Part shown: in pieces, positions 1-12,078 of the stretch
How positions within the stretch are numbered: position 1 is the stretch's first letter
Layout of the letters: each line of letters opens with the position of its first letter
Origin: Lachnospiraceae bacterium
GTDB lineage: Bacteria; Bacillota; Clostridia; Lachnospirales; Lachnospiraceae
Length of the DNA: 13,298 nt
Assembly: GCA_017443685.1 (NCBI GenBank)
Contig: JAFSYD010000055.1
Span: 1 to 13,298, forward strand
Reading direction: 5' to 3'
Made by a program: the position numbers and the translations under genes
Notes under the pieces: model-generated
The model's input: only the letters and a program-made list of their open reading frames with translations
Told to the model about the DNA's origin: nothing
Databases searched by the model: none

Positions 1-750
1 AAAAAAGGCTTTCTCAATAATATCTGCAATTAAATGGGATACTTGATTCAGCGAATCATTATCGCCCACCGATGAACGAATATCTTCTTTGATCACATCG
101 AAAGAAAAACTATTCGACTCATTTAAAAGAAGATCCACGCAGTTATGAATTTTGCTATTTGAAACACCGGGATACTTCTCTTTCAGGATATTCTCTATCC
201 GATGTTCCAATTCTACCAACTTAAGAACCGGTGAATCTTTAACAAGATTCTTATATTCATTTCCTCTTTGAATCACCCATGCTTTTTTTTGATAAAATGC
301 AGCATCCGGAACACAACTAAAATCCATGTATGATTCCACCATCGGATAGTTTATATATAGCTGACCGACATCCGTCACATTATCAAATAACGATAGCAAT
401 CGATTGATTTTATATTCGCTGAAATTCGGATCATGACGCTCATAGTCAAACACCAAAAAGATATTCGTATAATCTCTTTTATACTGTGTTGGTTTGTTGT
501 CTGCGTTTCGAGAAAGAACATAGGGCAAATCAATATCTACTTGTTCCAGCGGCTCTGAATACTCCTTGATTAATTGGTCATAAAGCATATAGATATTCGT
601 TCTGTAAATCCAAATATTATCCCTTTTAATATTTATTTCCGGAAAGGCTTTCAATAATGAAAAAAACAATAATTTTTTTTCATGGCTTCCCTCTACAACT
701 AACAATGTTTTTGATCTTTCCCGCTCCGATGTTCTATAGTTATTCAACAT
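1..750 (-). CDS. TOPRIM-like partner protein of the AAA ATPase (partial, C-terminus off window)
   Basis: An open frame of 250 codons runs from ATG at 750 to the window edge without a stop, so the C-terminus is missing. I read it directly on the reverse strand. Near the N-terminus TLLVVEGSHEKK (residues 15-26) resembles the first TOPRIM strand with its catalytic glutamate (E20). NIFLVFDYERHDP (96-108) supplies a hydrophobic strand followed by an acidic D102-x-E104 pair, the usual position of the TOPRIM DxD. LYINYPMVESYMDF (131-144) resembles the conserved strand after it in RloB-like and DUF4435-like proteins. The family therefore is probably a metal-dependent nuclease-type TOPRIM fold, as in OLD, RloB or AriB; that part is inference. 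The start overlaps the ATPase stop by 11 bases and has a GGAG ribosome site about 9 bases upstream, so the two are translated together. The gene is AT-rich like the ATPase and unlike the rest of the window. The exact family is not settled. Confidence 0.72.
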   Translation of the reverse strand, partial: MLNNYRTSERERSKTLLVVEGSHEKKLLFFSLLKAFPEINIKRDNIWIYRTNIYMLYDQLIKEYSEPLEQVDIDLPYVLSRNADNKPTQYKRDYTNIFLVFDYERHDPNFSEYKINRLLSLFDNVTDVGQLYINYPMVESYMDFSCVPDAAFYQKKAWVIQRGNEYKNLVKDSPVLKLVELEHRIENILKEKYPGVSNSKIHNCVDLLLNESNSFSFDVIKEDIRSSVGDNDSLNQVSHLIADIIEKAFF

Positions 751-1879
751 CCACAAACTCTCCACTTATATACATTTTTTCGAGATTATGTGCTTCTCGG
801 ATATCCCTTGATGTTGCATGTAACAACGTAGTCAATTGTCCGGATACCGAAAGAATAGCAACACAATCCGGTCTGACAAGTCGATTCGTCATCAGGTTCG
901 TATTATGTGATGTAATAACCACCTGTGTCGAAGGATATTCTCGCTTTATGAAAGAAAAAAGCTTTTCAGCCATTTCATAATGGTAAAGCGCATCAAACTC
1001 ATCTAAATATAAAAACGAGGGCGCTTTCTCCCACATAAAAATATTACGATAGAGCTCAACTGCGGAAATGGTGCCACTGGAAGCCGTTGAATAAAAAGGA
1101 ACCAACCTATCATGCTTAAAATACATCTCATGAGTTCCATCAGGAAGCTTCCTCACAACCAATTTGCATTTCACCCCCATCTGATTCAAATATGCTTCAA
1201 ATGTTCTTAACAACTCCTTATCATCATACAGATATCTGCACATCTCAGCATATGAACCTTTTCCAAGCGGGTTACTCTTAGCAACTCCTCGAACCATCTT
1301 CATATGAACTACATAATCCGAAAGATCCAATAAATGGGACATATTCGACAAAGCAAGATTTTCTATAATCCAACGTAAAAAAGGAAGCCTGGTCTCCTCT
1401 TCATTATTCAGATAGTTGTTCCAAAACCTGTTATAATTTATTGCCCCCTCTTCCAAATAGTTAAGTCCATCAAATCGGGCTGTTTTTCTTTCAAAATCAA
1501 TGTAAAATACCCTGTTTTTATTATATGACATACTTTCATCCAGTAACTGCCCCGTCGTATCCTTGGTGTATTCATAAATCAACTCATTGCCGCCAAATTC
1601 GAACAAATAAAGAAAATGAACATCTGAGTTCACTGAATCCGCATTCAACAAAAATCTTGTTTTCGGTTGAATGGCACTTCCAAGAACGTTCTGTATATCA
1701 AGGATTGCTTTTCCAAGATTTGTTTTACCGGTAGAATTTTTCCCATAAATGAGCATTTTTGTTATGATCTCATTTTCCAAACACTCTCCGCAATAGTCAT
1801 AGTTTCCGATATCCGTAAAATCAATTGTAATTTTCCCCTTAAAAGTTCGGTAATTTCTGATCTCAACTTTTTTTAACAT
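740..1879 (-). CDS. AAA_15/ABC-class ATPase, candidate defence ATPase
   Basis: A 379-residue SMC/ABC-like ATPase of the AAA_15 type. It opens with the usual strand KVEIRNYRTFKG, then a Walker A GKNSTGKT (residues 46-53), a signature-like STASSGT (264-270), Walker B FLYLDEFD (289-296, D293/E294) and an H-loop VITSHNT with H325. The middle (about 75-250) is a helical insert without a long Rad50-type coiled coil or zinc hook. The length fits RloA/AriA-type ATPases. These usually act as sensors or regulators of a linked effector, here the overlapping TOPRIM-like gene; that role is inference. ATG at 1879 has an AAAAGGAAA ribosome site at suitable spacing and sits about 37 bases from the predicted transcription start. 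A small Cys pair (C30, C33) lies just before Walker A. Composition is strongly AT-rich compared with the kinase gene 114 bases upstream, suggesting horizontal acquisition. It could instead belong to an unnamed ATPase/nuclease family. Confidence 0.85.
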   Translation of the reverse strand: MLKKVEIRNYRTFKGKITIDFTDIGNYDYCGECLENEIITKMLIYGKNSTGKTNLGKAILDIQNVLGSAIQPKTRFLLNADSVNSDVHFLYLFEFGGNELIYEYTKDTTGQLLDESMSYNKNRVFYIDFERKTARFDGLNYLEEGAINYNRFWNNYLNNEEETRLPFLRWIIENLALSNMSHLLDLSDYVVHMKMVRGVAKSNPLGKGSYAEMCRYLYDDKELLRTFEAYLNQMGVKCKLVVRKLPDGTHEMYFKHDRLVPFYSTASSGTISAVELYRNIFMWEKAPSFLYLDEFDALYHYEMAEKLFSFIKREYPSTQVVITSHNTNLMTNRLVRPDCVAILSVSGQLTTLLHATSRDIREAHNLEKMYISGEFVDVE

Positions 1880-1922
1880 TTACCATTTCCTTTTCTTTTT
1901 AAACCAGGATAACCTCCAATAT

Positions 1923-1931
1923 ATTGTATCA
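1923..1931 (-). promoter_or_regulatory. extended -10 promoter for the ATPase/TOPRIM module
   Basis: On the minus strand the sequence TGATACAAT gives an extended -10 element (TG-N-TACAAT) about 44 bases upstream of the ATPase ATG. No good -35 hexamer is present at 16-18 bases, which is acceptable for an extended -10. It gives the module its own promoter, separate from the kinase gene upstream. No strong intrinsic terminator separates them, so readthrough could also contribute. Confidence 0.45.
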
Positions 1932-1993
1932 TATCACCTCTTAGCGCGAAAGCACATCATCATAATATCCACAATAATTTTATGATTCAAGGG

Positions 1994-4900
1994 TCAAAAG
2001 CCTGTTCCCACGGCAAGCACCGCATCCCGGTCGAGCCGGCGGACAGCGGTACTTAACTTATCATATGCCGCCTTTTGCGCATCCGACAACGCGTATTCGG
2101 ACAGCATTGCAAGGATGTCGCCGGCGCCGTCGTAATCAAATGCTTCCACAAGCTCGCGGACGCCCGTGACCGCCGCGGCAAATTCCTCTTCTCCGATGAC
2201 GTCCGCCCCTTCCCGCAAAACAACATCCGACGACTCACCCTTCCGGCCATTCTCCGGCATACCGCCGCTTCTATTGCCCACGGTCTCCTCCGGCGAGCCA
2301 CCGGACTCTCCGGGCTTTTCATCCCCTGCCTCAAGTGCTGCGGCAAGAGCCTCCCCGAGTGACCGGTAGTCCTTAAGCAGCTGTCCGGTCTTCGCATTGA
2401 TCTCTTCCGCATTCTGCGCGTCCCCGCAGCTTTCCAGATATGCCGCCTGTTCCGATAAGTCTTTTGCACCGATGATGCGGGCGGAGCTTTTTAAGGCGTG
2501 CACGCGGATTGTATAATTCTTCCAGTCCTCCGCGGCGGCATCCGCTTCAATCATAGCGGGAACCGTCTTTGCACCGAGCACGAAATCACCCACCGTCTCG
2601 CGAAGGATCGCCTCCTCCATGCAGTTTGCAAGTGCCTCCTTTACATCAAGGCCGCCGATCCCCGACAATGCCGAAAGGAACGGACTGTCCGCATACCGAC
2701 CGCTTACGGCTGTCGCGTCAAAGCCGTCCGCCCCGGCCTTCGCGGATGACGCGCCTCCGACACCCCCTCCGGCTCCGGACGAACCGTCATCCTCAGATAC
2801 CGCGATCACCTTCTCTTTCGGCAGGTAGTTAAGCAGCATCTTCTCCAGCTTCTTCCCGTTCACCGGCTTAGACAGGTAATCGTCAAAGCCTGCCTCCAAA
2901 AACCGTTCGCGCGCTCCCGCCACCGCGTCCGCGGTCAGCATAATGACCGGCGTCTTGCGGTTCAGATCGTTGCACAGGCATAAGTTCTGCATCCGTTTCA
3001 ACGTCTCGATCCCGTCCATTTCCGGCATCCGCTGGTCTAAAAAGATCATGTCGTACCGCTTCTTATCCACGAGCGCAAGCGCTTCCATGCCGCTTTCCGC
3101 CGTATCGATGGCAACCTGCGTCTCCCTTAACAGCCCACGGAAAACCGTCAGGTTCATTCGCGTATCGTCCACAACCAGAATGCGGGCGGACGGCGCGTGA
3201 AAGGCCTCCCGGTAATTCTCCGCCGTCTCAAGCGATCTCTCGTACATCTCGGTAAAATTCCCGATCGGCTCGGTGCTCCTGACCTCCTGCGCCACGGTAA
3301 AATAGAACCGCGAACCGACGCCGTAGGTGCTTTCCACCTTAAGCTCGCTTCCCATCATCGCAAGAATGGACGTTACGATATTCATGCCGAGCCCCGTGCC
3401 CTCGATCCCGTGGTTCTTCGCCTCGTCGATCCGTTCATAGGCGTTAAACAGATGCGGAATATCCTCTTCCTTTATTCCGATCCCGGTATCCGTCACCGAA
3501 AAGGAAATCCCGACCCGCTCATCATCCTGCCACTCGTTCTTTACATCCAGCGTCACCGTTCCTTCCCTCGTGTACTTGACCGCATTTGTCAGGATGTTTA
3601 ACACACACTGCTTTAAGCGCGTATCATCCCCGAACAGAAGATGCGGGATGTCCTCTTCGACATTCACCTCCAGCTTCAGCCGCTTTTCATCGGCGCGGAC
3701 CGCCGTCATATTCACAAGGTCATTTAAGAGCGAAGCAAGGTCATATTCGACCGGCACAAGCTCCATCTTCCCCGCCTCGATCCGCGAGGAGTCCAAAAGA
3801 TCATTGATCAGCGAAAGCAGCGTCCGCCCGGAGTTCTGGATGTCCAGCGCATACCGCCGGATGTCTTTGTCCTTCGACTCCCTTAAGATCATTTCGTCAA
3901 ATCCCAAAACCGCGTTGATCGGCGTGCGGATCTCATGGGAGATGCTGGATAAGAACATGGATTTCGCTTTGTTCGCCTCCTTCGCTTCATACAGGGCATC
4001 CTGCAGCTCCCCGGAGGTCGCCGAGAGAAAGGTCAAAAGCCTATGTACCAAAGGCACGCTCCGGTTCGTCCGGTACGGGCATGCGCGGCAGAAATCCTGC
4101 GCCGCCGTCGAGTCCTCCTGCCTGTCCCCTTCCCGCAGCGCAAGAGCTGCCAGAGTGCTTGCCAGCTCCCCGCCGCCCTCCGCGTCAAAGAGAATCTCCC
4201 CGTTCCCGTGCAGCACCAGCATTTCCGGAGCCGCCGCCCGGTACATATCACGTTCGATCGCGACATCCTCTTTCAGCAGGACGCTGCGGTTCATACACGC
4301 GGAAGTCAGGAGTGCCTGCGTCTGAAATTCCAGAAACTCCTCCGCCCGGATGCTGCTTTCGGTAAAAATCTCATCCGGATTGCCATAGGAGAGACGAAGC
4401 ACGTCCCCCTCGAATACCGGCGAGGAAAAGGCCAGCGCACTCGCATCCCCCTCCACCTTGAAGCCGAGCCTGGCCAGGTAACGGCTGCCCCGCTTGATTG
4501 CAAACGGAAATTCACAGACATTTTCCGACACCAGCTGGTCGGGGCGCAGGCCGAGGTATTTCTTGTAAATATAGGAAGCAGGCTGCCCGTCAATCCGCTT
4601 TACGACCCGGTCGCCCTCCATCTCGTCGATCCGCATCGGCTTCCCGATCGGTGTCCATCCGAAATTATAGGACGAAAGCGCGTGCAGATCCTCTCCTTTA
4701 AAGACCACGTTGACAAAGCCCCGCGGCAGCAGCTGCGGTTTCCCGTCTTTCACGTAGAAGACATAGCCGGTAAGCTGTCTGTTGCTGTCAGGATTGCGCA
4801 CCCAGAAATCCGCCCCTATGTAGCGGGCCATACGCTGCATCACAGCCGCAGTCGCGCCGAAAAAGGGAATACTGCCGTTTGCCGCCGTCGCCATCGCAAG

Positions 4901-5356
4901 ATAGCTCTCCGTCGCTATCTCGTAACCTGCTGCCAGAAGCAGCACCGCCTTCGCGTCCTTCTCTTCGGAAAGCAGCTGTCCCATATAGCCGCCCGCTACG
5001 AACTCGCTCTGTGTGCTGCAGTCAAAGGCGTGCACGCAAAGTGTGCTTTGCTCGAACATCATAAGGTTTATGATAACGTCCGGCAGCCCCCGTTTTGCGC
5101 AGCCCATCTCATCGAAGATCTCCTCGAAGGTAAAGGTCTCGTGATTGATGTTCGTCATACCGGCAACAACTGCCTTCGGCATGGCCTTTTGCACTGTCCG
5201 GAGCACGCCCTCGATAAACTTCGGATCCCACGCTTCGATATAGACCTGCGCCAGCACGCTTTCGGCGTTCCGATACGCGTCCGACGCTGCCGCTTTTTTC
5301 AGATTTTTAACGATCTCGATCGGATTTTTACAATTGAGCTGTTTTTGTGTGATCAT
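1994..5356 (-). CDS. FIST-domain hybrid sensor histidine kinase with receiver and HPt domains
   Basis: A 1120-residue soluble multi-domain kinase with no membrane segment. Residues about 30-380 match the FIST N/C sensor layout (SVLAQVYIEAW, VVAGMTN), a domain thought to bind small ligands. A CxxC (C423, C426) follows. The HisKA H-box SISHEIRTPIN has phospho-acceptor H474. The ATPase domain shows the N-box (N587, N591), DTGIGI (623-628) and GTGLG (653-657). The receiver has D730/D731, phospho-acceptor D774 in FLDQRMPEMDG and K830. A glycine/alanine/serine linker (about 857-876) leads to an HPt domain with HALKSSARIIGA, H953. A second Gly/Glu/Ser-rich linker (about 1011-1046) precedes a helical tail (1051-1120) containing EAFDYDGAGDIL. 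This is a complete phosphorelay H-D-H in one chain, without a DNA-binding output; the final response regulator is not in the window. The start has AAAGGAGAA 7 bases upstream. It follows the MFS gene by 34 bases and is probably cotranscribed with it. The ligand is unknown. Confidence 0.93.
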   Translation of the reverse strand: MITQKQLNCKNPIEIVKNLKKAAASDAYRNAESVLAQVYIEAWDPKFIEGVLRTVQKAMPKAVVAGMTNINHETFTFEEIFDEMGCAKRGLPDVIINLMMFEQSTLCVHAFDCSTQSEFVAGGYMGQLLSEEKDAKAVLLLAAGYEIATESYLAMATAANGSIPFFGATAAVMQRMARYIGADFWVRNPDSNRQLTGYVFYVKDGKPQLLPRGFVNVVFKGEDLHALSSYNFGWTPIGKPMRIDEMEGDRVVKRIDGQPASYIYKKYLGLRPDQLVSENVCEFPFAIKRGSRYLARLGFKVEGDASALAFSSPVFEGDVLRLSYGNPDEIFTESSIRAEEFLEFQTQALLTSACMNRSVLLKEDVAIERDMYRAAAPEMLVLHGNGEILFDAEGGGELASTLAALALREGDRQEDSTAAQDFCRACPYRTNRSVPLVHRLLTFLSATSGELQDALYEAKEANKAKSMFLSSISHEIRTPINAVLGFDEMILRESKDKDIRRYALDIQNSGRTLLSLINDLLDSSRIEAGKMELVPVEYDLASLLNDLVNMTAVRADEKRLKLEVNVEEDIPHLLFGDDTRLKQCVLNILTNAVKYTREGTVTLDVKNEWQDDERVGISFSVTDTGIGIKEEDIPHLFNAYERIDEAKNHGIEGTGLGMNIVTSILAMMGSELKVESTYGVGSRFYFTVAQEVRSTEPIGNFTEMYERSLETAENYREAFHAPSARILVVDDTRMNLTVFRGLLRETQVAIDTAESGMEALALVDKKRYDMIFLDQRMPEMDGIETLKRMQNLCLCNDLNRKTPVIMLTADAVAGARERFLEAGFDDYLSKPVNGKKLEKMLLNYLPKEKVIAVSEDDGSSGAGGGVGGASSAKAGADGFDATAVSGRYADSPFLSALSGIGGLDVKEALANCMEEAILRETVGDFVLGAKTVPAMIEADAAAEDWKNYTIRVHALKSSARIIGAKDLSEQAAYLESCGDAQNAEEINAKTGQLLKDYRSLGEALAAALEAGDEKPGESGGSPEETVGNRSGGMPENGRKGESSDVVLREGADVIGEEEFAAAVTGVRELVEAFDYDGAGDILAMLSEYALSDAQKAAYDKLSTAVRRLDRDAVLAVGTGF

Positions 5357-5390
5357 CGGTGTTCTCCTTTTACAAAAATGGTGTGCCCCC

Positions 5391-6575
5391 TCATGCCTTG
5401 CGCTTCGTCGTGCCCTTCCTTTGAGTTATCGCCAGTATGGTAAAAAGCAGCGCACCCGCTATCGTCAGAACCTCGCAGAAACGCAGCATTGCGGGCAGCC
5501 CTAAGGTATCCTGTATCATCCCGCCGGCCAGGTTGCCGATCGTAGAGCCTAAGCCCGTCGTCATCACCGCGATCATCGTCTGCCCCTGCATCCCGTGCTC
5601 GAGCGCAAGCGCCTCATGCACGTAATAGGTGATGGACGCCGTGAAAATGCCGTAGCTTAAGCCCTGTAACGCCATGCCGAAAAACAGAACGCCGGGCGAC
5701 GGCGCCATACAGATGATAATGTTCCTTGCAACATAAGCGAGCGATGCGAAAAGCAGGATGTGCATCGTCGGTATCCGTCTTTTTAACACGGGAACAAGCG
5801 CCATAAACGGCAGCTCCGACGCGGCCATACAGAACACCCCGATGCCGTACATCGACGTGGTACCGCCGAGGCTTTCCACAATATTGATAAGGTAAGTACC
5901 GAGAGACGTTGCCGCCGCGAAGCTTAAGGTAAAAGCAAACAGCGTTATCATGTAGACCTTATAGTGCTTTACAAACGCCGGCATCGAAAGCTGCTCCTGC
6001 CCCGCGCCGGTCGCCTTCGCTTCCGCGTCGGGCATCGAGAATAATGTCAAAAACAAAAGCACGGTCGAACCGGCGTGCATAAACGCGAGCACCGTCGGAT
6101 CAATGCGCTCGATCAGTAGTCCCAATACCACCGCCGTCGTCGCATAGGAAACCGAACCCAGGCCCCGTGCCAGACCGAAGTTAACACTTAATCCGTCAGT
6201 CAGATAATTCATACAGATCGTAGTAAGAAGCGGCACGTTGACCCCCATCAGATTGCCGAGCGCGATAAACAACAGCATCAGCACCGCCTGAGGAAACGGC
6301 AGCCAGATCATCGCCGCCCAGAGTGCGATCATCAAAGAATAGCTTATGACGATCATTTTTTTGATCGTAAGCCCCTTTGTTTTCCCCACGAGGCCGGTAA
6401 AAAACGGCGTCGTAACGATCGTCATTGCGCAGTTGATCCCGCTCGTTAAGCCGATCATCGTGTTCGACATCCCCCGGTAGCGTAAGAACACCGCGATATA
6501 TCCGTACACGCAGCAATACGACAGCCAGAAAAAGATGTGCAATAGACTGTACTTCAGCTGTAAATGTTTTGGCAT
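5391..6575 (-). CDS. MFS transporter, MFS_1-like/LacY-type
   Basis: A 394-residue integral membrane protein with about 12 hydrophobic segments in two halves, separated by a hydrophilic loop near residues 182-205 (rich in Ala, Glu, Gln). The N-terminus with YGYIAVFLRYRGMSNTMIG and the second-half stretch from GIGVFCM to ASELPFM resemble the MFS_1-like group, which includes LacY-like sugar and nucleoside proton symporters. The substrate cannot be read from sequence. The start codon overlaps the glycosyltransferase stop (TGATG), so translation is probably coupled; only a weak GGGG ribosome site precedes it. The short basic C-terminus (QRKGTTKRKA) is cytoplasmic. Sitting between a glycosyltransferase and a sensor kinase, it might move a sugar or a signal related to both; that is inference. 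Confidence 0.9.
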   Translation of the reverse strand: MPKHLQLKYSLLHIFFWLSYCCVYGYIAVFLRYRGMSNTMIGLTSGINCAMTIVTTPFFTGLVGKTKGLTIKKMIVISYSLMIALWAAMIWLPFPQAVLMLLFIALGNLMGVNVPLLTTICMNYLTDGLSVNFGLARGLGSVSYATTAVVLGLLIERIDPTVLAFMHAGSTVLLFLTLFSMPDAEAKATGAGQEQLSMPAFVKHYKVYMITLFAFTLSFAAATSLGTYLINIVESLGGTTSMYGIGVFCMAASELPFMALVPVLKRRIPTMHILLFASLAYVARNIIICMAPSPGVLFFGMALQGLSYGIFTASITYYVHEALALEHGMQGQTMIAVMTTGLGSTIGNLAGGMIQDTLGLPAMLRFCEVLTIAGALLFTILAITQRKGTTKRKA

Positions 6576-7591
6576 CAGTTAAACCCCATAAATTTTTGCG
6601 CGATATGATAAAAATGAACCGACATCTTCCGCCCTGCCTTACCGGGCAGGTTCATTGCCGCGCCTAAGATGCCATACCGCAGATGATGCCAGGTGCGTTT
6701 GTCCTTTTTCTTGATATAGGCCCACAGATCCTTTACCTTCTGCAGATTCTCGGGATCCTCGGAGACATAGCCGATCGTCGTCGAGATCACCGTGATCATT
6801 TCCAGATACGCGAACATATACTCCCTTAAGTGGCGCTCCTCGATCTCCCAGAGGTCGAAGGCATCCACCATCAGATAGTTCACGCGAAGCTGCTGGTCGA
6901 TACGTTTTACCATAGTCTGTTCCGCGACCGACTGCCCTTCCCTGCCGATGTAATAGCGGTAGAAGTCCACGTTCAGGTAGTAGATCTTTTTCACGTGAGG
7001 AAGCGGCACGTAGACGAAGAGGTTGTCCACATAAAAGGTATGCTTCGGCAGCTTTAAGCCCGAAGCGCGGAGCATTTCGGTCCGGTAGGTAACGGAGTGC
7101 ATCAGGATTGAGAACCCCTTGATGTTGCGCTTCATATCCTCCCATCCGATCACCTTGTCCGTGGGAAAAAGCGGCGTGTAAAACATCGTCCGCTGGTGAT
7201 TCTCCGACACCTTCTCATAGACGTAATTCGTCAGGAGCATATCAATCTGCTCCCCCTCGGAAAGGAGACGCTTCAAGGTCGCGATCACTTCCATGTAGGC
7301 GTCATGATCCACCCAGTCATCCGAATCAACCACCTTAAAGTACTGCCCCACTGCCTCGCGAAGCCCGGTATTGACCGCCTCGCCGTGTCCGCCGTTTTCC
7401 TGGTGCACCGCCCGGATGATACCGGGATGCTCCTTTTCGAGCCGGTCCGCGATCGCGGCCGTCTCATCGGTCGAACCGTCGTCCACCAGAATGATCTCCA
7501 CGTCTTCGCCGCCGGGGAGAAGAGAATTCACGCATTTTTCCATGTAGTCCTGCGAATTGTAGCAGGGGATTGCAAAAGAAATCAGTTTCAT
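6575..7591 (-). CDS. glycosyltransferase family 2
   Basis: A 338-residue GT-A fold glycosyltransferase. The N-terminus has the classical LISFAIPCYNSQDYMEKCV, the nucleotide-binding ILVDDGSTDET (about residues 34-44) and the metal-binding acidic motif VVDSDDWVD with D89, D91 and D92. It would transfer a sugar from an NDP-sugar to a surface glycan, teichoic or exopolysaccharide acceptor; donor and acceptor are unknown. No membrane segment is obvious. The frame can be extended three codons to a TTG at 7600, but AGAAAGG would then lie too close, whereas it is about 10 bases from the ATG at 7591, so I chose that. It is separated from the methyltransferase upstream by 76 bases that hold no convincing terminator, and overlaps the MFS gene downstream. 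Confidence 0.92.
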   Translation of the reverse strand: MKLISFAIPCYNSQDYMEKCVNSLLPGGEDVEIILVDDGSTDETAAIADRLEKEHPGIIRAVHQENGGHGEAVNTGLREAVGQYFKVVDSDDWVDHDAYMEVIATLKRLLSEGEQIDMLLTNYVYEKVSENHQRTMFYTPLFPTDKVIGWEDMKRNIKGFSILMHSVTYRTEMLRASGLKLPKHTFYVDNLFVYVPLPHVKKIYYLNVDFYRYYIGREGQSVAEQTMVKRIDQQLRVNYLMVDAFDLWEIEERHLREYMFAYLEMITVISTTIGYVSEDPENLQKVKDLWAYIKKKDKRTWHHLRYGILGAAMNLPGKAGRKMSVHFYHIAQKFMGFN

Positions 7592-7667
7592 AAAAATCAA
7601 GCCTTTCTGTTATATTATGATGTGAGGGGCAAAAGGAGCTTCACATTATTTTGTTCCCGTCGGCGGA

Positions 7668-8405
7668 TCATTTGTTCACCTGCGCGGTAAAAAAGATACG
7701 CTCGGTGTCATTTTGCACCGCCCCGCCGGTCTGTGCATCCGTCACGGAAAGAACGCCAAATCCGTTCTTTTCCAAAAGAGCCGTTATCTCCTCCGCCTCG
7801 TACGCCCGCTGGGTGTGCGTCTCGGCATAACGGGCGTAGCGTCCGTCCTCCTGCCGCAAAAACAACGTCAGATCATACTCGTTGATTGCCGTATCAACAT
7901 CAAAGGAATTCTCCCATATATAGCTCCCGCGGTCCGCGTTTTCCGCGAAAACACGATCCGCGAGCAGCTCTTCGTAGACATACCGTGTCTTGATATCGAA
8001 CATCAAAAGCCCGCCCGGATCGAGGTAATTTGCCGCCAGTGCAAACGTCCGGTCGATCGCGGCGTCGGTTAAAAGATAATTCAACGAGTCGCAGACGCAG
8101 ACGATCGCAGCTACCGTACCGTATAATTCGAAGGAGCGCATATCCTGACAAAGGTAAAGGATTCCCTCATCCGACGCCCTCCCGGCAACCGCCAGCATCT
8201 CCGGCGACGCATCCACACCGATCATATCATATCCCGCACGTGCAAGCCTTCTTGTCATCTGTCCGGTTCCGCAGGCAAGGTCAAGTACCAAAGCCCCCTC
8301 GGCCACCCCATGTGTGCGCAGGGTATCGGTAATACTCAAAGCCCATGCGTCGTACGGCACATCCTCCATAAATGTATCATATACTTCGGCAAATTCTTCG
8401 TACAT
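7668..8405 (-). CDS. class I SAM-dependent methyltransferase, YqeM-like
   Basis: A 245-residue Rossmann-type methyltransferase. It starts MYEEFAEVYDTFMEDVPYDAW, wording typical of the Firmicute YqeM-like family. Motif I VLDLACGTGQM lies at residues 40-50, the acidic SAM ribose-binding motif GVDAS at 63-67, and the later CVCDSLNYLL near 103-112. The methyl acceptor is unknown for this family as far as I know, and the C-terminal half is beta-rich as usual. The frame extends upstream to a GTG at 8420, but AAGGA placed 7 bases before the ATG at 8405 decides for the shorter form; the GTG has no ribosome site. It lies 26 bases after the hydrolase stop and so belongs to the recJ operon. Confidence 0.9.
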   Translation of the reverse strand: MYEEFAEVYDTFMEDVPYDAWALSITDTLRTHGVAEGALVLDLACGTGQMTRRLARAGYDMIGVDASPEMLAVAGRASDEGILYLCQDMRSFELYGTVAAIVCVCDSLNYLLTDAAIDRTFALAANYLDPGGLLMFDIKTRYVYEELLADRVFAENADRGSYIWENSFDVDTAINEYDLTLFLRQEDGRYARYAETHTQRAYEAEEITALLEKNGFGVLSVTDAQTGGAVQNDTERIFFTAQVNK

Positions 8406-8431
8406 CGCTCTTTCCTTCACTGGGACCGTTC

Positions 8432-9379
8432 TTAAGATCCCTTTTTCATCCAGTGGTAGATGTCCTTATAGACCTGCATGCGGTCGGTCTCGTTTAAGAT
8501 CTCATGCCGGTCATTCTTATACAGCCGAAGCGCCACGTGTTCCACGCCCACGCGCTTATACATTTTTGCCGCTTCCCTGACACCCTTGCCATAATTGCCG
8601 ACCGGATCATCCGCACCCGAAATAAAAAAGATGGGCAGGGATTTCCTTACCTTTTCGACATTTTGCTTTTGCATATCGTATTCCGCGGCATCCAGCATCG
8701 CCATATAGGCGTTCAGGGAAAACAAAAACGCGCATTTTTCATCACTTTGATATCCCGTCACCACGTCCGCTTCCTTGGTCAGCCAGTTGTTCGCCGGGTC
8801 ATTGCCGGTATGATCGAACCTGCTGCCCGCGATCTGCGAGATCATCATACGCTCCACGCTTTCGCTCCGGTAATCCCATCCGTGGATCAGCGCAAGGGTA
8901 CGAAGAATACTTTTGCCTGCCGCGACCAAAGGCGGGGCTGCCTGCCCCGTTCCCATGACGATCGCACCGGTCAGTCCGGAAAGCTCGCCGGCCTTTGCCG
9001 AAAGCATCCACCGCAACAGATACGAGCCCATCGAATGCCCGAGGAAAAAGCAAGGGATATTCGGATAGAGTTCCTTCATATAACGGTAATCGCTAAACAT
9101 GTCTTCCATCATCACATGACCGGCATGTTCGGTATGCATGATGCCGCGCTCATCCGAAGATGCAACGGATCCTCCGTGTCCGATATGATCGTGCCCCATC
9201 AGGGCCACACCTTTTTCACAGAAAAATGCTGCCAAAGGTGCATACCGCTCAATATATTCCTTCATCCCGTGCGCCACCATCACGACCGCCTTTGGCTCCC
9301 CTTCGGGCAGGTAATGCATCCCGTGGATCCGCGTTGACGCGTCGTCTTTGGACGGGAACGAATAGGTCTTGATCTGCAT
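8432..9379 (-). CDS. alpha/beta hydrolase, monoacylglycerol lipase-like (Hydrolase_4)
   Basis: A 315-residue serine hydrolase of the Hydrolase_4/S33 type. The oxyanion-hole motif VMVAHGMKEY is at about residues 33-42, the nucleophile elbow GHSMG has S116, the acid is D258 in SGADDPVG and the base is H292 in NDRHEIL. All triad members are present. The cap region (about 145-235) is as long as in lysophospholipase or monoacylglycerol lipase relatives, so the substrate is probably an acylglycerol or lysophospholipid; this is family inference. There is no signal peptide, so it acts in the cytoplasm. A GGAGG ribosome site 8 bases before the ATG lies inside the end of the preceding gene, whose stop is only 3 bases away. 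Confidence 0.92.
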   Translation of the reverse strand: MQIKTYSFPSKDDASTRIHGMHYLPEGEPKAVVMVAHGMKEYIERYAPLAAFFCEKGVALMGHDHIGHGGSVASSDERGIMHTEHAGHVMMEDMFSDYRYMKELYPNIPCFFLGHSMGSYLLRWMLSAKAGELSGLTGAIVMGTGQAAPPLVAAGKSILRTLALIHGWDYRSESVERMMISQIAGSRFDHTGNDPANNWLTKEADVVTGYQSDEKCAFLFSLNAYMAMLDAAEYDMQKQNVEKVRKSLPIFFISGADDPVGNYGKGVREAAKMYKRVGVEHVALRLYKNDRHEILNETDRMQVYKDIYHWMKKGS

Positions 9380-9382
9380 CCT

Positions 9383-10324
9383 CTATTCCTCCGTGATCAT
9401 CCGTTGTATTTCCTGCACGACAGCTTCGATCTCCTCGCGACTTGCGGCTTCCTGTTCGTTGATCGCGGTAAACGCGTTCGTTTCCGCCTCGATCCCGCGG
9501 CTTGCCTCCCCCGCATCACGGAGTCTGCCCTGCATGCCTTCCACCGTATCCGTCATCCGCTGCACAACATTCCTCGGACGGGAGGCTGTCATCCTGTCGA
9601 TCTCCTTTTGCCCTTCATAAAGCGCCGCCACCGCGTCGCGGTTTTTGAACAGCTGATCGGTCAGGTTCGCAAGCTGCCCAAAGGTATCCTCATACGCCTG
9701 CTGCTCGGTTTCGATGGCTTTTACCATCTCGCCCAGTTCAGAGGACGCTTCCGTAACGTGAATGCGGACCTTATCACAGACCGCGGCAAACTCCCCCGCA
9801 TCCTCACCGAACCGCGCGGACAGCATGGCTGCCTGCAATGTCACGCCCGATATGCCGCCGAGCGCCTTCTGCGCCGCCTTCGTCCGCTCGAAAAGATCAT
9901 CGACACAGGCCTTATGGGCGGCAAGGAGCTCTTTTAACGTATCCGCCATCCCGATGTAAAACCGGCTCTCCTCAAACAGGCCTTTGAGCAGCTTTCTGCG
10001 GTTCTTTTCCGCGTCATCCTCCGCCGGCAGGCTCTGCCCGAGAATCTGAAGCTCCTGCGAAAGCGCCGCTATATCTTTGGCAAAAGCCGCATCCTGCTCA
10101 TCGCGTTCTTTTACGCAGCGTTCGACGCGTTCGTAGGTTGCCTGCCAGTTCTTCTCCAGAACGACAAGCGTCTCCACCTGCGAATCGATCACCTCGGAGA
10201 GCTCCGCGATCTTTTCCTTTGTAATGCGGTTGCGGTAATCGTCCATAATCTCTTTTTCATGATCCTTTTCGCGGATGCCGAAACGGCTTAGGATCTTCTC
10301 CCAAAAAGATTTTTCTTCGCTCAT
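9383..10324 (-). CDS. soluble coiled-coil protein with a degenerate MCP-type signalling hairpin
   Basis: A 313-residue, highly charged, almost wholly helical protein with no membrane segment or signal peptide. I do not recognise it as a named family. The first 60 residues are basic/acidic helix, followed by long heptad-like stretches (about 40-100, 115-160, 190-300). Residues 163-187 align without gaps with the tip of a chemoreceptor cytoplasmic hairpin: LQAAMLSARFGE corresponds to LNAAIEAARAGE and FAAVCDKVR to FAVVADEVR. About half of the positions are identical to that consensus, but the key glutamate of IEAA is Leu here, so binding to CheA/CheW is doubtful. It overlaps the recJ stop by 4 bases (ATGA) and lies 3 bases from the hydrolase gene. 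It could be a scaffold or sensor related to MCPs, or an unrelated coiled coil with chance resemblance. No chemotaxis gene is in the window. Confidence 0.85.
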   Translation of the reverse strand: MSEEKSFWEKILSRFGIREKDHEKEIMDDYRNRITKEKIAELSEVIDSQVETLVVLEKNWQATYERVERCVKERDEQDAAFAKDIAALSQELQILGQSLPAEDDAEKNRRKLLKGLFEESRFYIGMADTLKELLAAHKACVDDLFERTKAAQKALGGISGVTLQAAMLSARFGEDAGEFAAVCDKVRIHVTEASSELGEMVKAIETEQQAYEDTFGQLANLTDQLFKNRDAVAALYEGQKEIDRMTASRPRNVVQRMTDTVEGMQGRLRDAGEASRGIEAETNAFTAINEQEAASREEIEAVVQEIQRMITEE

Positions 10325-12078
10325 CTGTAATCCTCGATTCTCGCCTGAATGGTCTTTCGTCCCCTGAATTCGTTGATCCGCGGATAATAGGTAAAGGTCA
10401 GACGCACCGCGCTCTTTTTCGCGCCAAGCAGCGCCGCCACTTCTTTTTCTCCGAACTTGCGTTCCAGATACTCCGTCATCTCATCCGCATTGCCGAACCA
10501 CAGCGCTTCGACGTCGCTTCCGTCCGCCATACGGAATAAGAATTTCAAAAACTTCCTCTCGGACCGTCCGATGTAGCTCATCTGGTAAGGGATCAGATCC
10601 TTATCCGCAAAAAGCGGCTGCTCATTGCCTTCTCCGAACGGCTCCAGGCGCGAAAGCTCGCTGATCCGCTCCTCGGTCATATAGGAAAGCGGTGCGGCCG
10701 CATCGATCATCACGGTATCCGTCAGATCCTTTTCGGTAAGATGCGCGTTCGCGTTCAGGCGCATCCTAAGCTCCTCTACCTTCTCTTTTTTCAGGGAAAG
10801 GCCGGCAGCCATCGGATGTCCCCCGTAATGATCCAGAATATCCTCCACCTCGTGAAGCTTATCCGCCATGGGATATCCGGGAATGCTGCGACCGCTGCCT
10901 TTTACCATATGTTCGCCGTCGCAGAGAACGAAGACCGGCCGGTAATATTTTTCCCGCAAACGCCCCGCAACGATCCCGGCAAGGGACTCGTGCAGCTCGG
11001 GGATGTATACGATAAGCACCGCATCCGGTTCCCCTGCCGCCTCGACGGCTTCCATCGCTTTGTCCGATGCCGCTTCCGTCATCGACTTGCGGCGTTCGTT
11101 AAGGTCGATCATCCCGCGGGCCCGCTCGATCGCTTTGGCCGCACTGCTCTCCTCGAGAAGCTCGACCGCGCGGATCGCCGAATCCAGACGCCCGCAGGCG
11201 TTAAAGCACGGACCCAGAATAAAACCGATATCCATCGCGTTCAGCTGCGCCTCGCTTCTGCCGCAGCCGTCCAAAAGCGCGTTCAGCCCGATATTATCCG
11301 TATGGCTAAGCTGCGAAAGTCCCAAAGCAACGATTACGCGATTCTCACCCACAAGCGGCATAATGTCGCAAACAGTCGCAAACGCGGCAAACGGCAGGAA
11401 GGCGTCATATTCCGCCCCGGGAATGCCCATCAGCTCATACAGGACCCCGATCAGCTTCCAGGCCACAACCGCACCGCAGATATCGGCAAACGGATAGGTA
11501 TCCCCCGGCTGATGCGGATTGACCACCGCGTCCGCTTCGGGTAAAAGATATCTTTTTTCTTCGCCATCGTTTTCAAAATCGAACGCGTGATGATCCGTCA
11601 CGATCACCTGCATACCGGCTTCTTTTAACATCGCGATCTCGCGGAAGGCTTTGATCCCGTTATCACAGGTGATCACAAGCTCCGTGCCGTCCGCGATCGC
11701 CTTTTCACAGAGGCGGGCGTTCAGGCCGTAGCCGTCCGTGATCCTGTGCGGGATGTCGTAATCCACGATCCCGCCGCAGCGCACGAGCGCCGTCTTTAAT
11801 ATGTAGGTAGAAAAAACGCCGTCCACATCGTAGTCGCCGATCACGCGGATCTTCTTCCCTTCGTCGATCGCCTTTTTCAAAAGCGCAGCCGCTTCCTTTG
11901 CGCCCTTCAAAAGCGCTCCATCGTGCAGCCTGCCACGAGAGGGTGATAAAAATGCTCCCATTTCCTCTTCGGGGATGCCGCGGTTGACCATGCAGCGTGC
12001 GGTTAAGGGATCGATGCCAAACTGTTCGGCAAGGCGGTTAAAATCACCTTTTTTGTTGTAGACCATCCACTGCTTCAT
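10321..12078 (-). CDS. recJ: single-stranded-DNA-specific exonuclease RecJ
   Basis: A 585-residue DHH-superfamily 5'-3' single-strand exonuclease used in recombination and repair. Metal-binding motifs are in order: GDYDVDG with D82, D84, D86; ITCDNG with D139; TDHH with D162, H163, H164; and CDIMPL with D238. NACGRLDSA follows (about 294-301). The DHHA1 part shows GIVAGRLREKY and GGHPMAAGLS (419-428), then an OB-like DNA-binding C-terminus. Length is close to the E. coli type (577) and lacks the extra C-terminal domain of B. subtilis RecJ. The ATG overlaps the OhrR stop (ATGA), so it is translationally coupled to the regulator. All expected residues are present, so I expect an active enzyme. 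Confidence 0.97.
   Translation of the reverse strand: MKQWMVYNKKGDFNRLAEQFGIDPLTARCMVNRGIPEEEMGAFLSPSRGRLHDGALLKGAKEAAALLKKAIDEGKKIRVIGDYDVDGVFSTYILKTALVRCGGIVDYDIPHRITDGYGLNARLCEKAIADGTELVITCDNGIKAFREIAMLKEAGMQVIVTDHHAFDFENDGEEKRYLLPEADAVVNPHQPGDTYPFADICGAVVAWKLIGVLYELMGIPGAEYDAFLPFAAFATVCDIMPLVGENRVIVALGLSQLSHTDNIGLNALLDGCGRSEAQLNAMDIGFILGPCFNACGRLDSAIRAVELLEESSAAKAIERARGMIDLNERRKSMTEAASDKAMEAVEAAGEPDAVLIVYIPELHESLAGIVAGRLREKYYRPVFVLCDGEHMVKGSGRSIPGYPMADKLHEVEDILDHYGGHPMAAGLSLKKEKVEELRMRLNANAHLTEKDLTDTVMIDAAAPLSYMTEERISELSRLEPFGEGNEQPLFADKDLIPYQMSYIGRSERKFLKFLFRMADGSDVEALWFGNADEMTEYLERKFGEKEVAALLGAKKSAVRLTFTYYPRINEFRGRKTIQARIEDYR

Follow-up and report, generated by a model that had tools for sequence, protein, structure and literature searches.

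Which system is formed by the two genes at the left end of contig JAFSYD010000055.1, and what would it do in its host? The window (the whole stretch of DNA analysed, 13,298 nucleotides) is an entire contig (C291) of a 71%-complete genome of a Lachnospiraceae bacterium (GCA_017443685.1). The first gene of the pair encodes an ATPase; the second encodes a TOPRIM-like partner. Both match PDC-M12, a candidate defence system of PADLOC. The reading judged probable here is that the two genes form a PDC-M12 module gained by horizontal transfer, in which the ATPase would sense infection and restrain the partner, and the freed partner would cut nucleic acid, most likely tRNA or another translation RNA, resulting in abortive infection. 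Features of the pair are given one per line (positions in the window).

743..1879, reverse strand: ATPase gene, PDC-M12A, AAA_21/AAA_15, Rad50/PtuA-like head, 379 residues; start ATG at 1879, stop codon at 740-742
1721..1744, reverse strand: Walker A, GKNSTGKT, ATPase residues 46-53 (sequence and alignment)
998..1003, reverse strand: end of Walker B, ATPase D293/E294 (sequence and alignment)
740..750, reverse strand: 11-base overlap, end of the ATPase gene with start of the partner gene; spacing is comparably tight in most related loci
1..750, reverse strand: 5′ part of the partner gene, PDC-M12B, TOPRIM-like putative nuclease/effector; ATG at 750; first 250 residues; runs off the contig at base 1
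691..693, reverse strand: partner E20, first TOPRIM acidic residue, in LLVVEG (sequence and alignments)
439..447, reverse strand: partner D102-Y103-E104 in VFDYERHDP, D-x-E where TOPRIM has D-x-D (sequence and alignments)
319..348, reverse strand: partner YPMVESYMDF motif, residues 135-144, after the fourth strand (sequence, alignment and homologue model)

Identity of the two proteins

PADLOC assigns the ATPase to PDC-M12A (1.7e-80, 269 bits, residues 1-375 on profile positions 1-367 of 369) and the partner to PDC-M12B (2.4e-32, 111 bits, residues 13-217 on profile positions 8-201 of 251). All five PDC-M12B models are matched by 64 of the 64 aligned members. Gene order is that of PDC-M12, ATPase then partner. 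Judged by these profiles, the pair belongs to PDC-M12. A preliminary description of this DNA had proposed a defence-type module of ATPase and TOPRIM-like partner, which is upheld at the level of a candidate; the separate, unrecognised family that it thought possible is already named. PDC systems come from a guilt-by-embedding study, as cited in passages of PMC12988326 and PMC12255303. No paper naming or testing PDC-M12 was found in the open-licence PMC literature. Homologues at E<=0.001 number 1770 for the ATPase and 534 for the partner, so the pair of open reading frames is not due to chance.

The ATPase carries, besides its Walker motifs, an ABC-type signature (SSGT, 267-270) and a switch histidine (H325). 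Residues G46, N48, T50, G51, K52, T53, S267-T270, D293, E294 and H325 are invariant across 30 aligned homologues. Motifs and overlap are as given in the preliminary description. Pfam matches are AAA_21 (1.1e-13) and AAA_15. The AlphaFold2 (AF2) model contains no long coiled coils, as had been claimed, and the head resembles Rad50 and PtuA. The protein is read as an SMC/Rad50/PtuA-type head, probably working as a dimer or higher oligomer. A sequence search of the ATPase against solved structures gave no match. Several PHROG families of unknown function match the proteins (best 2.5e-38 for the ATPase, 2e-5 for the partner); NCBIfam gave nothing above its cut-offs for either.

The acidic residues of the partner lie where they had been placed, and a 28-row alignment shows no variation at E20, D102 or E104. 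A wider set of 51 pairs (the window plus 50 loci in which neither gene is broken, 37 partner-side and 13 ATPase-side; duplicates L138 and L140 removed) has E at position 20 and D at position 102 in 51/51, and E (44) or D (7) at position 104. The TOPRIM pattern, E after beta-1 and an acidic D-x-[E/D] after beta-3, is thus present in 51/51. Position 139, in the YPMVESYMDF motif, is E in 49 pairs, D in one and Q in one. The motif had been located correctly, but its reading as an oddity of the window copy is rejected: it is a conserved post-beta-4 motif found family-wide.

Full-length partner homologues have about 340 residues; by comparison, about 90 are missing from the window copy. The missing C-terminus, with which the second gene was to be completed, was found on no other contig of this 71%-complete genome. 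A full-length homologue (P0055; AF2 model, predicted local distance difference test 90) has the strand order b1(E)-a-b2-a-b3(D-x-E)-a-b4(YPMIES)-a, as in TOPRIM. The structural check suggested in the preliminary description agrees on strand order. Matches to known structures are all weak: Foldseek ranks a 306-residue PARIS-complex chain first, and the 50 VIA rows include four of OLD, four of Retron-Eco8 and one of PARIS (9 in all). Pfam gave nothing meaningful for the window partner (P0002), and its profile gave a single irrelevant match (E 2.6) in a sequence search against solved structures.

Relationship to known ATPase and TOPRIM systems

The similarity in plan to PARIS and AbiL that had been pointed out is borne out; AbiL is the nearest cousin. 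AbiL (AbiLi/AbiLii, Lactococcus) is likewise a bicistronic set of an ATPase and a TOPRIM_OLD/RloB-type effector, and acts by abortive infection according to passages of PMC10440598. The pair might be a divergent member of AbiL and not a separate system, a reading compatible with the mechanism preferred here. The AbiLi profile matches the ATPase (1e-34, 118 bits), and AbiLii weakly matches 30 of the 64 partners at E<=0.05 (best 1.4e-4). Both scores are far lower than those on PDC-M12, however: AbiLi stands 151 bits below PDC-M12A and aligns only over profile positions 49-282 of 326, and AbiLii reaches the window partner weakly (6e-4, 18 bits, versus 111 bits for PDC-M12B). By Pfam the pair contains no RloB domain. 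AbiL membership is rather unlikely, and the assignment to PDC-M12 is retained.

PARIS (AriA/AriB) shares the plan of an ATPase and a separate TOPRIM effector. The ATPase matches the AriA profile (2e-17) in addition to AAA_21; both profiles are broad. Membership is rejected: DUF4435 of AriB (PF14491) has no match in P0002 (E<=1), in 64 members (E<=0.05) or in 10 diverse members (E<=1). This domain also has no match in the window's own genome. DUF4435 matches occur in L102, L103 and L104 within single long frames (536-646 residues), possibly ATPase-DUF4435 fusions.

RloA/RloB resembles the family in combining an ATPase with a partner that has EG-x-x-(T)E, D-x-D and, after the fourth strand, an N-P-x-x-E-like motif (compared by eye). 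Membership is again rejected: the RloB domain (PF13707, cut-off 31.5 bits) has no match in P0002 (E<=1) or in 64 members (E<=0.05). Five of the 10 diverse members give sub-cut-off RloB matches (13-17 bits, E 0.0068 to 0.12); unrelated DUFs give similar E-values in other members. Compared with 15 RloB proteins by hhalign, the window clade reaches 1.4% probability, and five plasmid or phage members reach 44% at best, over 27 columns only.

OLD and Gabija GajA require ATPase and TOPRIM in a single polypeptide and are rejected; two separate genes are found here and in the 47 loci where both are visible. Septu is rejected too: it requires the HNH partner PtuB, and the window partner has no HNH match (E<=1) and has TOPRIM-like motifs instead. 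PtuA of Septu and of retrons stands among the closest known systems; the Septu partner is an HNH nuclease, that of the window pair TOPRIM-like.

Pairing and gene decay

In 47 of 48 loci from GTDB genomes, an ATPase gene lies directly upstream of the partner gene; it is intact in 46 and broken in one, L054. The remaining locus, L044, begins within the final residues of the ATPase. The overlap makes translational coupling of the two genes likely. Their divergence is correlated (Mantel r 0.95 for the 51 pairs, 0.875 for a 34-pair core; 0/2000 permutations reach it).

Decay affects mostly the partner. Among 44 partner-side loci free of contig-edge doubt, both genes are intact in 37, only the partner is broken in 6 (L051, L058, L060, L061, L063, L065), both are broken in one (L054) and only the ATPase in none. 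Contig ends kept L044, L062, L064 and L066 out of the tally; the break in L062 may be real. In L060, L063 and L065 the partner has lost large internal stretches. L058 is scored as broken because of a short internal deletion that leaves 87% profile coverage, and the tally is 5 to 0 without it; L051 is frameshifted, so a sequencing error is possible. A one-sided sign test on 6 to 0 gives 1/64. Such a bias would be expected of a toxic partner kept in check by the ATPase.

The 27 ATPase-side loci favour intact ATPases by sampling and are descriptive only; two of them, L138 and L140, repeat L019 and L057. The ATPase is broken in 3 and intact in 24; of the latter, 15 have an intact partner, 7 a broken or missing one and 2 an unclear one. 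The partner is broken or absent in L142, L150, L152, L155, L156, L159 and L160, and unclear in L146 and L154; L163 has a broken ATPase beside an intact partner.

Two of these loci, L150 and L159, encode an intact PDC-M12A-like ATPase with no partner remnant recognised downstream, so a different partner or effector is possible there. In L062 a second fragment of the ATPase C-terminus (10207-10341) follows the partner fragment near the contig end, a product of recombination or an assembly artefact.

Carriage by plasmids and phages

Searched by tblastn, the ATPase is found in 14 of 72,556 plasmid records, with query coverage of 80% or more in 13, and in 3 of 50,697 phage records. The partner is found in the same 14 plasmid and 3 phage records, over 28-49% of its length. 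One of the 13 plasmid records, a 2.1-Mb Fusobacterium record, is probably a chromosome. Members carried by the small plasmids, the Acinetobacter plasmids and the Vibrio phage are divergent ones. Ten plasmid records are 4.0-4.4-kb plasmids of Escherichia and Raoultella. In pEcFELIX705.3 (L164, NZ_CP101918.1; 4404 bases), the one examined in full, the pair is the main cargo; a Rop gene is present, which suggests a ColE1-like plasmid. On Acinetobacter plasmids the pair sits among RelE/ParE and HicAB-type genes. In the Vibrio phage record examined (Tubulavirales, filamentous), the pair is flanked by a gene-1 homologue and a regulator; the record labels the ATPase "Paris_II__AAA_21" and the partner hypothetical, and PADLOC calls both PDC-M12. 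Both proteins are also PDC-M12 on pEcFELIX705.3 and on the Acinetobacter plasmid pA1192-P1, and the partner, the only protein run, is PDC-M12B on plasmids L167 and L168. Phage members came only from tblastn on GenBank phages; a scan of viral contigs gave 102 pattern matches, of which 0 were confirmed.

This carriage would also suit a toxin-antitoxin (addiction) pair that stabilises plasmids or prophages, with any antiphage effect secondary. One 4.4-kb plasmid has the pair as its principal cargo, Acinetobacter plasmids have it among RelE/ParE and HicAB-type genes, and its decay is toxin-like. However, the copies seen in Lachnospiraceae and other Clostridia look chromosomal by their neighbours, a phage-integrase domain occurs in only 2/131 near neighbours, the ATPase, with its large head of sensor type, does not resemble usual antitoxins, and the Vibrio phage copy belongs to a genome type whose variable locus often holds defence genes. 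Marine Vibrio filamentous and tailless prophages are described, in passages of PMC11630473, as carrying complete defence systems, including Paris, in variable loci. A primarily addictive role is quite improbable; an infection-triggered module remains the preferred reading.

Probable horizontal acquisition and genomic neighbours

The pair has a guanine plus cytosine (GC) content of 35.7%, versus 54.4% for the rest of the contig; third-codon GC is 34-36% versus 62-73%. GC of the pair is below that of its flanks in 44/44 usable loci (mean gap 10.5 points; L044, L054, L064 and L066 of the 48 were dropped by script conditions). The pair looks recently, horizontally acquired. Its distribution is patchy: the partner is found in 15/299 genomes of the bacterial family, and is absent from a genome of the same genus (G168).

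An ordinary chromosomal gene pair without a role in conflict with mobile elements would be expected in neighbourhoods such as those observed. Most neighbours appear to be ordinary chromosomal genes. None of their families returns at a fixed position, and each Pfam family is present in at most 3 of 131 near neighbours. The density of defence genes is no higher close to the pair than far from it: PADLOC (E<=1e-15) gave no enrichment, with scattered matches in both the near set (131/160 proteins; two nearest genes a side, 100-899 residues) and the far set (131/204; at least 6 genes away) of the 48 loci. The defence-island check suggested in the preliminary description is hence negative, and this weighs against a defence role. 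Among the matches listed, those of the near set are mad3 (3), subtilase (2) and one protein each of JetB, LmuA, type IV restriction, Csm4, Csm5, Avs1a, PDC-S70, RTasMBL, PbeA and mad2; those of the far set are mad3 (2) and one each of PDC-S01, WYL, DpdF, RTasDUF1848, PDC-S23, PDC-S05, mad2 and PDC-M10A. The families total 34 near and 27 far, of which 9 near and 2 far fall outside the matches listed.

Against an ordinary pair stand the patchy distribution, the low GC, the decay, and carriage by plasmids and filamentous phages. This carriage argues against a core, non-defence gene, a setting that the preliminary description had taken as contrary to its proposal. That the pair has no part in such conflict is very improbable.

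Two loci have defence genes adjoining the pair. In L045 the pair (8800-11053) directly follows csm5 (7508-8620) of a CRISPR type III-A locus, a possible case of embedding. In L038 it lies (partner at 2064-3110) just upstream of a Wadjet-type operon (3161-8698), in which JetB was confirmed at 4705-5388.

Proposed mechanism

By analogy, the most likely nature of the module is that of a TOPRIM nuclease kept in check by its ATPase and working through abortive infection. The ATPase would hold back the partner until infection is sensed; the activated partner would then cleave nucleic acid by a two-metal reaction through E20, D102 and E104. The target would most likely be tRNA or another RNA needed for translation, and growth would halt before phage production, in a manner like that of toxin-antitoxin systems. 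The RNA or tRNA target is the weakest step, held with somewhat less than even confidence. In PARIS, the TOPRIM protein AriB is a nuclease that cleaves tRNA, and ribosomes are not stalled by the E26A mutant (passages of PMC12409363). Neutralisation assays validated AAA ATPases of Clostridium algidicarnis and Streptococcus agalactiae as antitoxins of the TOPRIM_OLD toxins paired with them (passages of PMC10440598); the authors speculate there that such pairs are abortive-infection systems.

The partner might instead act on DNA: in a complex like that of OLD/Gabija, ATPase and partner would directly nick or break down incoming DNA, without RNA-based killing. The four OLD and four Retron-Eco8 rows among the VIA neighbours of the partner model point this way, as does the likeness of the ATPase head to Rad50 and PtuA; Retron-Eco8 is reported to cut double-stranded DNA (PMC12887533). 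However, the two genes are separate, as in PARIS and AbiL, versus one chain in OLD/GajA, and the top Foldseek row comes from PARIS. Decay of the partner alone, with the ATPase kept, suggests a self-toxic partner, yet a DNA nuclease could be self-toxic too. A DNA-directed system is considered unlikely, and RNA-based abortive infection is preferred.

Variation within the family

The window branch of PDC-M12 differs from other members by a longer partner and by mostly D-x-E instead of D-x-D. Partners have about 340 residues in this branch versus 241-260 in five mobile-element members; short relatives in the same bacterial family (L012-L017) have 260-295 where complete. These short relatives and the mobile-element members carry FFD-x-D, the classical D-x-D. 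Mobile-element members have EG-x-x-TE at the first motif (for example FVFEGEKTE, with FFDYDGH at the D-x-D motif). Profile comparison links the short and mobile members to the window clade (2.7e-16 and 3.6e-18). Among the 51 pairs, one D at position 104 belongs to a long-type sequence, and short relatives of both kinds exist. D-x-E, previously taken as an unusual trait, appears from these alignments as a tendency of one branch, since relatives joined to it by profile carry D-x-D.

Speculatively, PDC-M12 might stand next to PARIS and AbiL/RloAB as a third independent line of TOPRIM effectors restrained by an ATPase, with 4-kb plasmids and filamentous phages as its carriers between phyla; the Lachnospiraceae branch would have largely switched from the metal-binding D-x-D to D-x-E and gained a C-terminal helical region, giving a different nucleic-acid target. 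This scenario is doubtful.

Other features of the window

1880..1993, reverse strand: 114-base spacer separating the pair from a hybrid histidine kinase gene; presumed promoter region, with one consensus match at 1990-1962

A promoter scan of the spacer region gave 10 matches, versus 6.9 +/- 2.5 in shuffles; promoter and terminator scans of the window were not clearly above shuffles. The window contains no tRNA and no Rfam match. The large hybrid histidine kinase gene adjoining the pair (1994-5356) has 59 matches at E<=0.001 in the same genome, so the organism is rich in such kinases. Relatives of this kinase in four same-genus genomes (L106-L109; the best 68% identical over 607 residues and cut by its contig end) stand in loci without a match to nine other window proteins queried; synteny is too poor for an empty-site comparison.

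Significance

What this analysis adds is the set of branch features, the carriage on mobile elements and the bias of decay. It turns an unvalidated PADLOC candidate into a testable model with a putative toxin gene designated by decay bias, defined residues (E20, D102, E104) and compact natural vectors (4.4-kb plasmids). If the model is confirmed, ATPase-restrained TOPRIM effectors would be more varied than PARIS and AbiL, and would be carried even by very small plasmids and filamentous phages.
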